43,651 bases of DNA from positions 1 to 43,651 of the forward strand of contig JARXAM010000101.1 of NCBI GenBank assembly GCA_029865845.1. Direction: 5' to 3'. The DNA is from Rhodoferax sp. (GTDB taxonomy: Bacteria; Pseudomonadota; Gammaproteobacteria; Burkholderiales; Burkholderiaceae_C). The notes under the pieces were generated by a model, which made no database searches, had not been told where the DNA came from, and worked only from the letters and a program-made list of their open reading frames with translations. A program made the translations under genes and the position numbers. Below are positions 32,716 through 35,517 of this stretch, piece by piece (positions within the stretch are counted from its first letter, which is position 1; each line of letters opens with the position of its first letter).

Positions 32716-33300
32716 ATGGACTTGGCCCCATTGGTCTACCAACGAACCGCGTTCTTGGACGGACAGTGGTGGCTGCCACTGACTTCGCAGTTTGTACACC
32801 TCAGCAGCGTGCACGCGCTCATGAATGTCGCCAGCGCATGCTTGCTGGCGGGTTTGTTTCGTTCTTGGATACCGTGGAGACAGCAGTGTGCGGTACTGGC
32901 GGGCGGGGGCGTGGCAGTGGCCATCACCCTCGTGGCGGATGCCCGGTGTGACTACTACGCAGGCGCATCTGGCGCCCTGCACGGTTGGGCGGCTGGTGGC
33001 GCATTGTTGTTGCTAGAGCCCCTGTTTTGTCCGCGCCGCGCGCGCCTGATACCCCGGGCAGCAGCGCTGGCCCCCATGTCTGTGGCGGCGTGCCTGTGGG
33101 TGGGGCTGGTCATCAAGCTGGCATGGCAATGCGTGCAAACCACCCCGGTTGTGGCGTGGGGCCTGCAGGTCTATGTGCCATCCCACGTCGCGGGGTGTGT
33201 TGGTGGCGGCTTAGTGGGGGCGTGGTTGGTGGGGGGCAGATGGTGGGCCTTGAAGCGTCCGGGCGACAAGCCACATCAACCCCAGCACAACCAACTCTAG
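32716..33300 (+). CDS. Rhombosortase-like rhomboid intramembrane serine protease
   Basis: 194 residues. GQWWLPLTSQFVHLSSVHALMN matches the first conserved block of rhombosortases, the catalytic Ser 85 is in AGASGALHGW (GxSGxLHG) and the His 157 in PSHVAGCVGGGLVGAW. About five membrane segments are visible (27-48, 58-74, 82-103, 115-137, 156-173). Rhombosortases process proteins with a GlyGly-CTERM tail, and such a protein is encoded convergently next door. The frame is closed by TGA at 32647 with no start codon between, so the extra N-terminal helix of most relatives appears to be missing. The 3' end overlaps the subtilase gene by 90 bases. Confidence 0.85.
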   Translation: MDLAPLVYQRTAFLDGQWWLPLTSQFVHLSSVHALMNVASACLLAGLFRSWIPWRQQCAVLAGGGVAVAITLVADARCDYYAGASGALHGWAAGGALLLLEPLFCPRRARLIPRAAALAPMSVAACLWVGLVIKLAWQCVQTTPVVAWGLQVYVPSHVAGCVGGGLVGAWLVGGRWWALKRPGDKPHQPQHNQL

Positions 33301-35124
33301 CCACTGCACGGCACCTCCACCTCCCGAGCTGGGCGTTGGTGCCACCGTGATAGTCACCGTTTGACTACTACTTTTCGCCATTCCGTCACTCGCTTGCAGG
33401 GTGAGCGGGTAGGTTCCCGCTTGAGGGCGTGGCCACACAAACTCACCCGTGGCGTTGTTAAAGCTGGCACCCGAAGGCAGGGTGCTGATGATGTAGGAGA
33501 TGGGGTCCGCGTCCGTGTCTGTGGCGCTGGCCGTGAACTGCAAGGAGGCTGTTGAGGGCACCGTCTGGTTGGGAATGCTTTGCAGCACCGGCGCCGCGTT
33601 AGGTTTGCCGAGTCGGACCTGCATCGCGTGCGCTGCGGCATAGGCATCCACCATACCGGTACCGCAATCCGTGTTGTTGCTGCAAAGAAGGTCGGTGGAA
33701 AAAGGGCGTGCTTGCGAAGTGAGCCAGTAGCGCACCGTCGCAGGTTGGATGGCCGGGTTGATCTGGTAGAGCAGCGCGGCAGCGGCGGCCACATGGGCAG
33801 CAGACATGCTGGTGCCGCTTTCTGCTTGCCAGTTGTCGCCCCCGGGGCTGGCAACAGGGCTTGTTTGCCCGGTGTTGGAGGTAGACATAATGCCTGTACC
33901 GGGCGCGCTCAGTGTCGTTCCTGGCCCTATATTGGCAAACTCAGACAGTTTTCCCCCACGGTCGTGCGCCGTGACGGCAATCACCCCCTTGCAGTTGGCG
34001 GGCGACGCGATCATGTGGTCCTTGCCGTCATTGCCCGTGGAGGCCACCACGGTGACGCCTGCATTGATGACCGCGTCCACCGCCGCTTGGTACCCCGCAC
34101 TGCACGATGCGCCTAAGCCCACCCCCAAGCTCAGGTTCAAAACCTTGGCGGCATGGGGGTTGGTAGCGCCTTGCACAGTGTGCAAGCCCGCAGCCCAGTA
34201 CATGCCTTCTTGAATGTCTGACGAATAGCCGCCACACACCCCCAACACCCGAACCGGCAAGACTTTGGCACCATAGGCGGCCCCCACCATGCCGATGGTG
34301 TTGTTGGCCACGGCAGCAATAATGCCGGCCACGTGGGTGCCATGCCACGTCGAGGTGGCGCAGTTCACCTTGTCGGTGTCACTCCAATCGCCGGGGTCTG
34401 CTGGGTTTGCATCCCAGCCTGGCGTGCCATCGCGATCGGTCGCGGCGCTCACAAAGTCGTATCCCGTCCACAGGTTGGTGTAGAGATCTTGGTGTGGACG
34501 GTATCCCGAGTCCAGCACGGCCACTGTCACGCCTGATCCGGTCACGGAAGATCCCCCCTGGGTCAAGCCCCAGGCGTCCAAAAAATTGGCCCCACCGGCG
34601 TTCGTGGTGCTAGGCAGCAGATTCCAAAGACCCTCTCGCCACAGCGCATCGTTGAACGCAGCATGGGGGCGAACGAACTCGTCCACTTCCGCAAACGCGA
34701 CGTCGGGGTCTGCAGCCATGGCCCGTGCAATCGACTCCAATGCCTGTCGCGGCAAAGGTTGCCGAGTGATGACCACATGGGTGTTGCGATAAATGGTTTT
34801 TAGATAGCGCACTTGTCCCGGCGCACTGCGCACTGCCATGGCCTGCACGCGTTCCGGGCCCGCCTCGAAAGCCGCTCCTGGTTGTGGGACCGGCCCTGCG
34901 GCTGGGAGGTCGCCTGCAGCACCGTTTCGCATTTTCACAATGATGCGGTTGGAGAGGTGATCTGTCGAAGCGGTGGCCGAAGGTGCCCCTTGCGTGCCCG
35001 CGCCCACAGCGTTATACCGCAGGCGTGTGCTGGGGGGCGAGGTGTCTTCGGTCCATGCGTGCAGCGACGTACCTCCCATCGCACCCAGTGCGAGGGACAG
35101 ACCTATCCATACATTCTTTTTCAT
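33211..35124 (-). CDS. Secreted subtilisin-like serine protease (S8) with GlyGly-CTERM sorting tail
   Basis: 637 residues. Signal peptide 1-23 (cleavage after SLHA), prodomain about 57-152 (NRIIVKMR to AEVDEFV), catalytic domain about 195-500 with Asp 205 (VAVLDSGY), His 261 (WHGTHVAG), oxyanion Asn 365 (STGNDG) and Ser 439 (GTSMSAAH). An Ig-like domain of the He_PIG/cadherin type spans about 510-597. The C terminus reads SSGGGG (599-604), a hydrophobic helix 605-621 and Arg 622, followed by 15 more residues: a GlyGly-CTERM signal with an unusual tail. Expected to be exported, cleaved by rhombosortase and released or surface-attached. Transcribed with the upstream lipoprotein gene (9-base gap). 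Confidence 0.93.
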   Translation of the reverse strand: MKKNVWIGLSLALGAMGGTSLHAWTEDTSPPSTRLRYNAVGAGTQGAPSATASTDHLSNRIIVKMRNGAAGDLPAAGPVPQPGAAFEAGPERVQAMAVRSAPGQVRYLKTIYRNTHVVITRQPLPRQALESIARAMAADPDVAFAEVDEFVRPHAAFNDALWREGLWNLLPSTTNAGGANFLDAWGLTQGGSSVTGSGVTVAVLDSGYRPHQDLYTNLWTGYDFVSAATDRDGTPGWDANPADPGDWSDTDKVNCATSTWHGTHVAGIIAAVANNTIGMVGAAYGAKVLPVRVLGVCGGYSSDIQEGMYWAAGLHTVQGATNPHAAKVLNLSLGVGLGASCSAGYQAAVDAVINAGVTVVASTGNDGKDHMIASPANCKGVIAVTAHDRGGKLSEFANIGPGTTLSAPGTGIMSTSNTGQTSPVASPGGDNWQAESGTSMSAAHVAAAAALLYQINPAIQPATVRYWLTSQARPFSTDLLCSNNTDCGTGMVDAYAAAHAMQVRLGKPNAAPVLQSIPNQTVPSTASLQFTASATDTDADPISYIISTLPSGASFNNATGEFVWPRPQAGTYPLTLQASDGMAKSSSQTVTITVAPTPSSGGGGAVQWLELVVLGLMWLVARTLQGPPSAPHQPRPH

Positions 35125-35133
35125 GGTGTGCGC

Positions 35134-35517
35134 TTAATGAACCGTGGCGATGGTGTCGATTTCAGCTGATTGAACCATGGCAATGTGTTGCAGCGATTCC
35201 ATCAACGCAGCGGCGCTTTGGCCCGCCGCCAAGGTGAATTGAAAAACGTGCGCACGTCCCCACACCGGGGCGACGTAGCGCACTTCCCGTGCCTTGCTCC
35301 CGGCGGCAAGTGTCTGCAGTGCTTCTTGGGCCACATCCGTCTGCACGGTCCGAAAAGTGACCACGACGCGAACGAACCGGTCGGTAGCATGGGCCGTGTT
35401 ATCGGCTGGCGACAGCGGCTTCCACACAGCAGGCGGCTGCTTTGGCCGCGCGTCATGCGGAGCACATGCGGCTGCTAAACACCCCAGCAGTGTGGCGAGA
35501 AAGGTGCGCAGCATCAT
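35134..35517 (-). CDS. Small lipoprotein resembling a subtilase prodomain (I9-like)
   Basis: 127 residues. The N terminus MMLRTFLATLLGCLAAAC is a lipoprotein signal (lipid-attached Cys probably 18), followed by a proline-rich linker and a compact domain about 47-127. This domain lines up with the prodomain of the neighbouring subtilase: FVRVVVTFR with RIIVKMR, EVRYVAPVWGRAHVFQFT with QVRYLKTIYRNTHVVITR, and VQSAEIDTI with VAFAEVDEF, the beta-alpha-beta-beta-alpha-beta order of peptidase inhibitor I9 domains. It is read before the protease in the same transcript. A membrane-tethered chaperone or inhibitor of the protease is the likely role; this is inference from hand alignment. Confidence 0.72.
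   Translation of the reverse strand: MMLRTFLATLLGCLAAACAPHDARPKQPPAVWKPLSPADNTAHATDRFVRVVVTFRTVQTDVAQEALQTLAAGSKAREVRYVAPVWGRAHVFQFTLAAGQSAAALMESLQHIAMVQSAEIDTIATVH

Follow-up and report, generated by a model that had tools for sequence, protein, structure and literature searches.

How does a Gram-negative cell keep a prodomain-activated protease harmless while it matures in the periplasm and is sorted to the surface? The question is raised by a locus of Rhodoferax sp. on contig JARXAM010000101.1, of which a stretch of 43,651 nucleotides, here called the window, was analysed. The locus encodes a rhombosortase-type rhomboid protease, an S8 subtilase with a GlyGly-CTERM sorting tail and a small lipoprotein. 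All three open reading frames (ORFs) are present at the coordinates given in an earlier note on this DNA, the original prediction (Table 1). The testable answer towards which we lean is that the lipoprotein would be a lipid-anchored prodomain that acts in trans, inhibiting and perhaps also folding the protease inside the envelope.

The lipoprotein and the prodomain of its neighbour

Homology to a subtilase prodomain and a matching fold order are both found in the lipoprotein, which on the evidence of profile comparison and structure prediction is a homologue of the prodomain that the protease itself carries. When 17 mature lipoproteins were compared with 36 protease prodomains (hhalign, profile against profile) the match had a probability of 97.1% and an E-value of 6e-11, which bears out the prodomain-like character proposed in the original prediction. 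As controls, three other segments of the proteases (catalytic and C-terminal) reached at most 0.4% against the lipoprotein profile, and 30 column-shuffled profiles at most 1.8%. When the prodomains came from 18 proteases for which no lipoprotein was detected, the match was still 94.0%. An AlphaFold2 model of the lipoprotein (eight sequences; pLDDT about 91 in the core and 74.7 over the whole) has the predicted order strand-helix-strand-strand-helix-strand (E-H-E-E-H-E), which is the topology of subtilisin propeptides (PMC6993865; here and below, statements on cited papers refer to the portions of their text that were available).

In a search of all PDB sequences with the lipoprotein profile, subtilisin propeptide chains took the first five places and made up 11 of the 16 matches listed, each of them weak (E 0.04-0.4). 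A wider lipoprotein profile gave three such chains among the nine matches listed and, in addition, two short chains that carry no more specific name than serine proteinase or protease (E 0.02-0.5). The prodomain family PF22148 was matched by 7 of the 17 members (best E 0.0015) and PF05922 by one, weakly; a further 10 members gave a single PF22148 match (E 0.24). The window lipoprotein shares 19-29% identity with 16 relatives, and its NCBIfam match of 14 bits is far below the cut-off of that model.

Cys18 of the window lipoprotein sits in a lipobox after LAAA, as judged by pattern; the lipobox is unclear in one relative (L134; loci carry L numbers and genomes G numbers). In E. coli, lipoproteins with no Asp after this Cys are sorted to the outer membrane. 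None of 32 members has Asp directly after the lipobox Cys, and by the E. coli rule the lipoprotein would therefore be placed in the outer membrane.

Across the 17 diverse lipoproteins only two columns never vary: one holds the Cys of the lipobox, the other an Asp close to the C terminus. In the wider set this Asp is present in 30 of the 32 members, and Glu or Gln stands two residues before it in 26. A helix-capping Asp71 and an acidic pair have been described for subtilisin BPN' (PMC6993865), and alignment coordinates suggest that the conserved Asp lies at or next to the position of Asp71. The number of residues that follow the Asp is six in 13 of the 32 members, the window lipoprotein included, and four to eight in 24. 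The propeptide chains 1spb, 1scj and 3vv2 likewise end six residues past the matching position, again by alignment coordinates. With its C terminus six residues after the Asp, the lipoprotein therefore appears to resemble a propeptide after its cleavage. RVIVxF is often found at the start of the domain and ExD near its end; with the lipobox, these marks give annotators a recognisable partner for hypothetical lipoproteins beside S8 genes.

Among close relatives the lipoprotein gene evolves under purifying selection, with dN/dS values of 0.15-0.43 in 11 comparisons, a set that excludes the window gene because it has no close enough relative.

Distribution of the lipoprotein

The partner to which the lipoprotein is linked is the protease, not the rhombosortase. 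In searches that started from the lipoprotein, an S8 neighbour was present in all 14 genomes of the genus, in all 9 at family level, in 8 of 9 at order level and in all 8 at class level (clear stand-alone matches only, with the window counted at each level). The genus survey covered 103 genomes, among which the first lipoprotein profile found 14 genuine copies and, in a fifteenth genome, a match in a long frame; five more genomes have divergent copies, which lie upstream of the protease. The family-level search yielded L132-L135 and L137, and six more loci were read at order level (L273-L278) and seven at class level (L309-L315). Dropped from the genus count were G043 (match in a 556-residue frame) and second matches in long frames. 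At family level the long-frame matches (taken as S8 prodomains, partly read), G456 (internal stop, negative with the final profile), G193 and G159 (no match to the final profile) and G233 (S8 fragment) were dropped; at order level G753 (another family), G612 and G837 (no match to the final profile) and the long frame of G522; and at class level long-frame matches, G1061 (S8 in broken frames) and G1178 and G908 (frames of 236 and 195 residues).

The sorting system that accompanies the pair varies. The full window layout is repeated in L278, L312 and L313, and the lipoprotein adjoins a convergent rhombosortase in these loci and in L132-L134; on TIGR03902 the L278 and L312 rhombosortases reach 127.5 and 135.1 bits, respectively. 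The proteases of L276 and L309 carry JDVT-CTERM tails (30.1 and 35.4 bits, cut-off 27), that of L275 falls just below this cut-off (24.1 bits), and the S8 proteases of L273, L274 and L277 have no such sorting tail. Some lipoprotein loci show no rhombosortase match, and in G065, G081 and G117 the lipoprotein is present though the rhombosortase match is on another contig. Since it is also found with JDVT-CTERM and tail-less proteases, the lipoprotein follows the protease, and not the rhombosortase, across different sorting systems; the idea that it is part of rhombosortase function was rejected on the same partners. These partners, the three genomes just named and 8 of 23 genus loci at which no lipoprotein was found also tell against the self-contained unit proposed in the original prediction. 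The JDVT-CTERM-like tails of L275, L276, L309 and L315 contain Cys, that of L315 by resemblance only, as its model match was not listed. The lipoprotein gene comes after the protease gene in L274, L277, L310 and L314 and between two proteases in L311. In L310, where the protease has a glycine-rich tail, the pair is followed by a GlpG-like rhomboid gene (L310:3467-4207) that scores 16 bits on the rhombosortase profile.

Rhombosortase and protease genes are convergent at 23 genus loci, the window included, and 15 of them have the lipoprotein. Because the layout recurs in this way, a chance association of the lipoprotein is unlikely, and the co-occurrence of the three genes, a survey of which was suggested in the original prediction, is seen at these 15 loci and not at the other eight. 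Another gene is in the lipoprotein position at five of the eight. A gene resembling, by eye, a 4'-phosphopantetheinyl transferase was seen in this position in L084, L086, L089, L097 and L104. In a second genus layout the rhombosortase is in tandem with GlyGly-tailed subtilases, at 11 loci with 12 proteases (L087, L088, L093, L094, L095, L100, L101, L102, L105, L106 and L108); the rhombosortase of L106 lies between two of them. Sixty other Burkholderiaceae loci were fetched for their protease, and the lipoprotein was detectable in 11.

On a tree of 105 proteases the presence of the lipoprotein (32 rows) takes 9 changes, compared with at least 21 in 200 shuffles; this tree was built quickly and has long branches, one of them leading to the window protease, and 12 of 117 proteases were outside it because of a motif mismatch or a short piece. 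A conserved ORF of about 75 residues (MSRPAIWATKV... and variants) was seen upstream of the lipoprotein or protease gene in L020, L069, L071, L075, L077, L091 and L107; it was not seen in the ORF list of the window.

What the lipoprotein may do

In the proposed mechanism the protease would enter the periplasm with its own prodomain, fold and mature. Sharing its predicted fold with that prodomain and ending at a point that matches the cut end of a propeptide, the lipoprotein could dock in the active site in the manner of a product and, from its membrane anchor, keep the protease silent within the envelope. It may additionally assist folding. The GlyGly-CTERM tail would be cut by the rhombosortase and the protease exported by the type II system, whose GspD is present in this genome (597 bits). 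The protease would be freed on leaving the compartment of the lipoprotein, which, being lipid-anchored, should not exit with it and would stay behind as a guard. A wider proposal, which we put at just short of an even chance, is that an unnamed, class-wide family of lipid-anchored trans-prodomains guards S8 proteases, most of them sorted by their C termini. The cis prodomain would fold the enzyme and the tethered, product-like trans prodomain would make the crossing of the outer membrane the activation switch, whichever tail enzyme, of rhombosortase or JDVT type, is used.

Several results weigh against a trans-acting prodomain. The protease retains its own prodomain, and a second one is not obviously needed. 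The window lipoprotein alone has no Pfam match, to PF05922 and PF22148 or otherwise, and Foldseek placed generic ferredoxin-like folds first, with no subtilisin propeptide in the 50 matches listed. The tail after the conserved Asp has 15-18 residues in 6 of the 32 members and 10 in two. No lipoprotein was detectable at 8 of the 23 convergent genus loci, at any of the 11 tandem loci or in 49 of the 60 other Burkholderiaceae loci, and one orphan lipoprotein (G699, L268) has no S8 gene within 1.5 kb.

The main rival is a folding role. The lipoprotein would then be mainly a tethered steric foldase, as are Lif for lipases and ORF2 for the Aeromonas protease, the protease would stay unfolded or unsecreted without it, and inhibition would be a by-product. 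The homology to a folding prodomain and the shared fold order fit this role, and LipB and CpaB are examples of tethered chaperones encoded next to type II substrates (PMC4713064). ORF2 of Aeromonas sobria both inhibits the protease ASP and supports its folding (PMC5638518). Like the lipoprotein, ORF2 is encoded by a separate gene beside a secreted subtilase, and it places its C terminus in the active site (PMC5638518); the window partner, unlike ORF2, has a lipobox. No ASP or ORF2 chain was among the PDB matches listed for either lipoprotein profile. Two points make folding as the main role rather unlikely. ASP is called propeptide-deficient in a cited title (Kobayashi 2015, in PMC5638518), whereas the cis prodomain is kept in the window protease and its aligned relatives, and closely related proteases exist without a detected lipoprotein. 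Lif/LipB and CpaB resemble the lipoprotein as tethered partners encoded beside one type II substrate. They differ in being anchored by a transmembrane (TM) helix and not a lipobox, CpaB has an SRPBCC domain, and none of the 13 rows in Table 1 of that source is labelled a subtilase (PMC4713064).

It is also conceivable that the lipoprotein inhibits other subtilases, foreign or of the envelope, and is merely co-regulated with its neighbour. Stand-alone propeptide-like inhibitors have been described, namely SUB1-ProM, TgMIC5, Pleurotus inhibitor 1 and the yeast peptidase B inhibitor, and SUB1-ProM and TgMIC5 are precedents for regulation in trans (PMC6993865). They share the fold topology and a capping acidic residue with the lipoprotein, and SUB1-ProM is adjacent to subtilisin genes as the lipoprotein is to the S8 gene. 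These examples are eukaryotic, and neither a lipobox anchor nor a link to C-terminal sorting is mentioned in the available text (PMC6993865). The family member without an S8 neighbour would fit a role of this kind, which is nevertheless improbable given the homology to the neighbour's own prodomain, the near-complete S8 linkage in the lipoprotein-first searches and the detection of a single S8 gene in this genome (143 contigs, completeness estimate 76%).

A role as an adaptor of the rhombosortase/GlyGly-CTERM pathway, and not of the protease, is disfavoured and more doubtful still. The adjacent convergent rhombosortase at 15 of 23 genus loci and in the six loci named above speaks for it; the JDVT-CTERM and tail-less proteases beside the lipoprotein, the loci without a rhombosortase match and the prodomain type of its sequence speak against it. 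A decaying, functionless duplicate of the prodomain would explain the rapid divergence and the patchy presence and is hardly credible beside the dN/dS values of the relatives, the invariant Cys and Asp and the small number of changes on the protease tree.

The rhombosortase, the sorting tail and the locus

The rhomboid protein has the rhombosortase motif attributed to it in the original prediction (GxSGxLHG) as GASGALHG, which fits GxSGxxHG, as well as PSHVAG with the catalytic His. Its assignment as a rhombosortase stands with a reservation, as it matches TIGR03902 with an E-value of 6.6e-23 and a score of 81.4 bits (80.8 in the genome-wide search) that is slightly under the cut-off of 84. 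L084, of the same clade, clears the cut-off (96.3 bits), and the matches in the genus split into a group of at least 68.8 bits and a group of at most 54.6. This genome has a single TIGR03902 match at E <= 1e-6. Rhombosortases have been described as having at least six TM helices (PMC3237569), and the window protein falls outside that description: five are predicted, TM1 is absent and no hydrophobic segment precedes the L1 region. A co-occurring GlyGly-CTERM protein, also expected of a rhombosortase, is present in the genome. A longer start that would restore TM1 was ruled out, as the open frame extends 22 codons upstream and contains no hydrophobic stretch. The structure model has five long helices and a pLDDT of 54.9, too poor to use.

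The window protein belongs to a clade of 12 rows without TM1 (support 98/94), the others being L084, L086, L089, L090, L096-L099, L103, L104 and L107; TM1 is separately absent in L020 and L069, outside this clade. The catalytic Ser and His are conserved in all 26 aligned rhomboids. In half of the clade (L096, L098, L099, L103, L104 and L107) Tyr or Gln takes the place of the His in the LHG motif, and dN/dS in the clade genes is 0.12-0.43 (9 comparisons). Clade proteins begin MD[FL]A directly after a nagZ-like gene, where that was seen. A literature search gave no five-helix bacterial rhomboid among the matches listed, and the clade is a natural test of the role of TM1 in rhomboids.

The protease matches PF00082 (E 8.8e-53, 179.9 bits) and has a He_PIG domain (PF05345). 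D205, H261 and S439 are invariant across ten aligned proteases, with the triad assigned from their motifs. With its tail, SGGGGAVQWLELVVLGLMWLVARTL, the protease clears the TIGR03501 cut-off of 15.5 bits at 16.0 bits (E 0.10 in a search of one genome), in agreement with the GlyGly-CTERM end originally predicted; TIGR03501 was not among the matches at E <= 1 in a library scan of the window proteins. SGGGG and the hydrophobic stretch are clear, and the C-terminal basic cluster is thin, with few basic residues. A genus tail profile, which includes the window tail itself, gives it 37.7 bits.

Other tails were searched for in 10 genomes with both models. TIGR03501 at E <= 10 recovered 2 of 10 known tails and the genus profile all 10, eight of which were built into it; the two held-out tails had E-values of 0.009 and 0.018, not better than several unrelated matches. 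The expectation that no other GlyGly-CTERM protein is present held, in that no second clear tail was found at the inspected loci of this 76%-complete genome, none of the loci inspected showing a glycine motif, helix and basic end together. Part of the inspection was limited to frames with GG or GS near the end, and a weak second target could be missed because matches without a retrieved locus were not read. Two candidates were set aside. The homologous L186 and L187 end in a hydrophobic stretch that holds GGLGG and is followed by RR, and were judged to be a membrane protein, and the tail of L153 resembles PEP-CTERM and not GlyGly-CTERM.

How much of this arrangement is new? In 16 of 21 genomes with a single GlyGly-CTERM target, rhombosortase and target are no more than one gene apart (Haft and Varghese 2011, PMC3237569), and the pair is therefore a known dedicated system. 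In those pairs, as in the window, the rhombosortase gene adjoins the single target; the window rhombosortase differs in lacking TM1, and the term lipoprotein is absent from the main text of that paper as available (PMC3237569). The original prediction held that a tethered partner beside a single dedicated target was undescribed. The dedicated pair is already published and the lipoprotein is the new part; literature searches gave no lipoprotein as a partner of the protease or rhombosortase among the matches listed.

In Vibrio cholerae, cleavage of the VesB tail by rhombosortase is followed by modification of the new terminus, export of the protease by the type II system and its retention on the surface (PMC6219818). 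The release by rhombosortase supposed in the original prediction thus runs counter to the tested case, in which the protease is kept on the surface by it. VesB resembles the window protease in its propeptide, GlyGly-CTERM tail, rhombosortase processing and type II export; it differs in being trypsin-like, and the V. cholerae rhombosortase RssP serves several targets (PMC6219818, PMC13393428). The word chaperone is absent from the available text on VesB (PMC6219818).

Table 1. Features of the locus, with positions in the window
Feature	Positions	Strand	Basis
Rhombosortase-type rhomboid protease, 194 aa	32716..33300	+	TIGR03902 81.4 bits; PF01694 35.4 bits; 26-sequence alignment
S8 subtilase, 637 aa: signal peptide (by eye), own prodomain, catalytic domain, He_PIG, GlyGly-CTERM	33211..35124	-	PF00082; PF05345
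Cis prodomain of the S8 protease	34663..34968	-	aligned region of profile-profile match; lipoprotein profile E 4.8e-5
GlyGly-CTERM sorting tail	33214..33324	-	TIGR03501 16.0 bits; genus tail profile 37.7 bits
Convergent overlap, 90 bp, 3' ends of rhombosortase and protease genes	33211..33300	.	ORF coordinates
Gap, 9 bp, lipoprotein stop to protease start	35125..35133	-	ORF coordinates
Prodomain-like lipoprotein, 127 aa, lipobox Cys18, predicted fold residues 47-125	35134..35517	-	ORF; profile-profile; AlphaFold2

The single transcript of three genes implied in the original prediction holds in part. The lipoprotein gene lies ahead of the protease gene on the same strand; the rhomboid gene is on the opposite strand, convergent with and overlapping the protease gene, and a shared transcript is therefore possible only for lipoprotein and protease. 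Promoter and terminator scans of the locus gave results at chance level, and an Rfam scan gave no match near it. On its 5' side the rhomboid gene has pdxJ-, acpS- and nagZ-like neighbours, named from their translations, and 22 bp separate the end of the nagZ-like gene from the rhomboid start.

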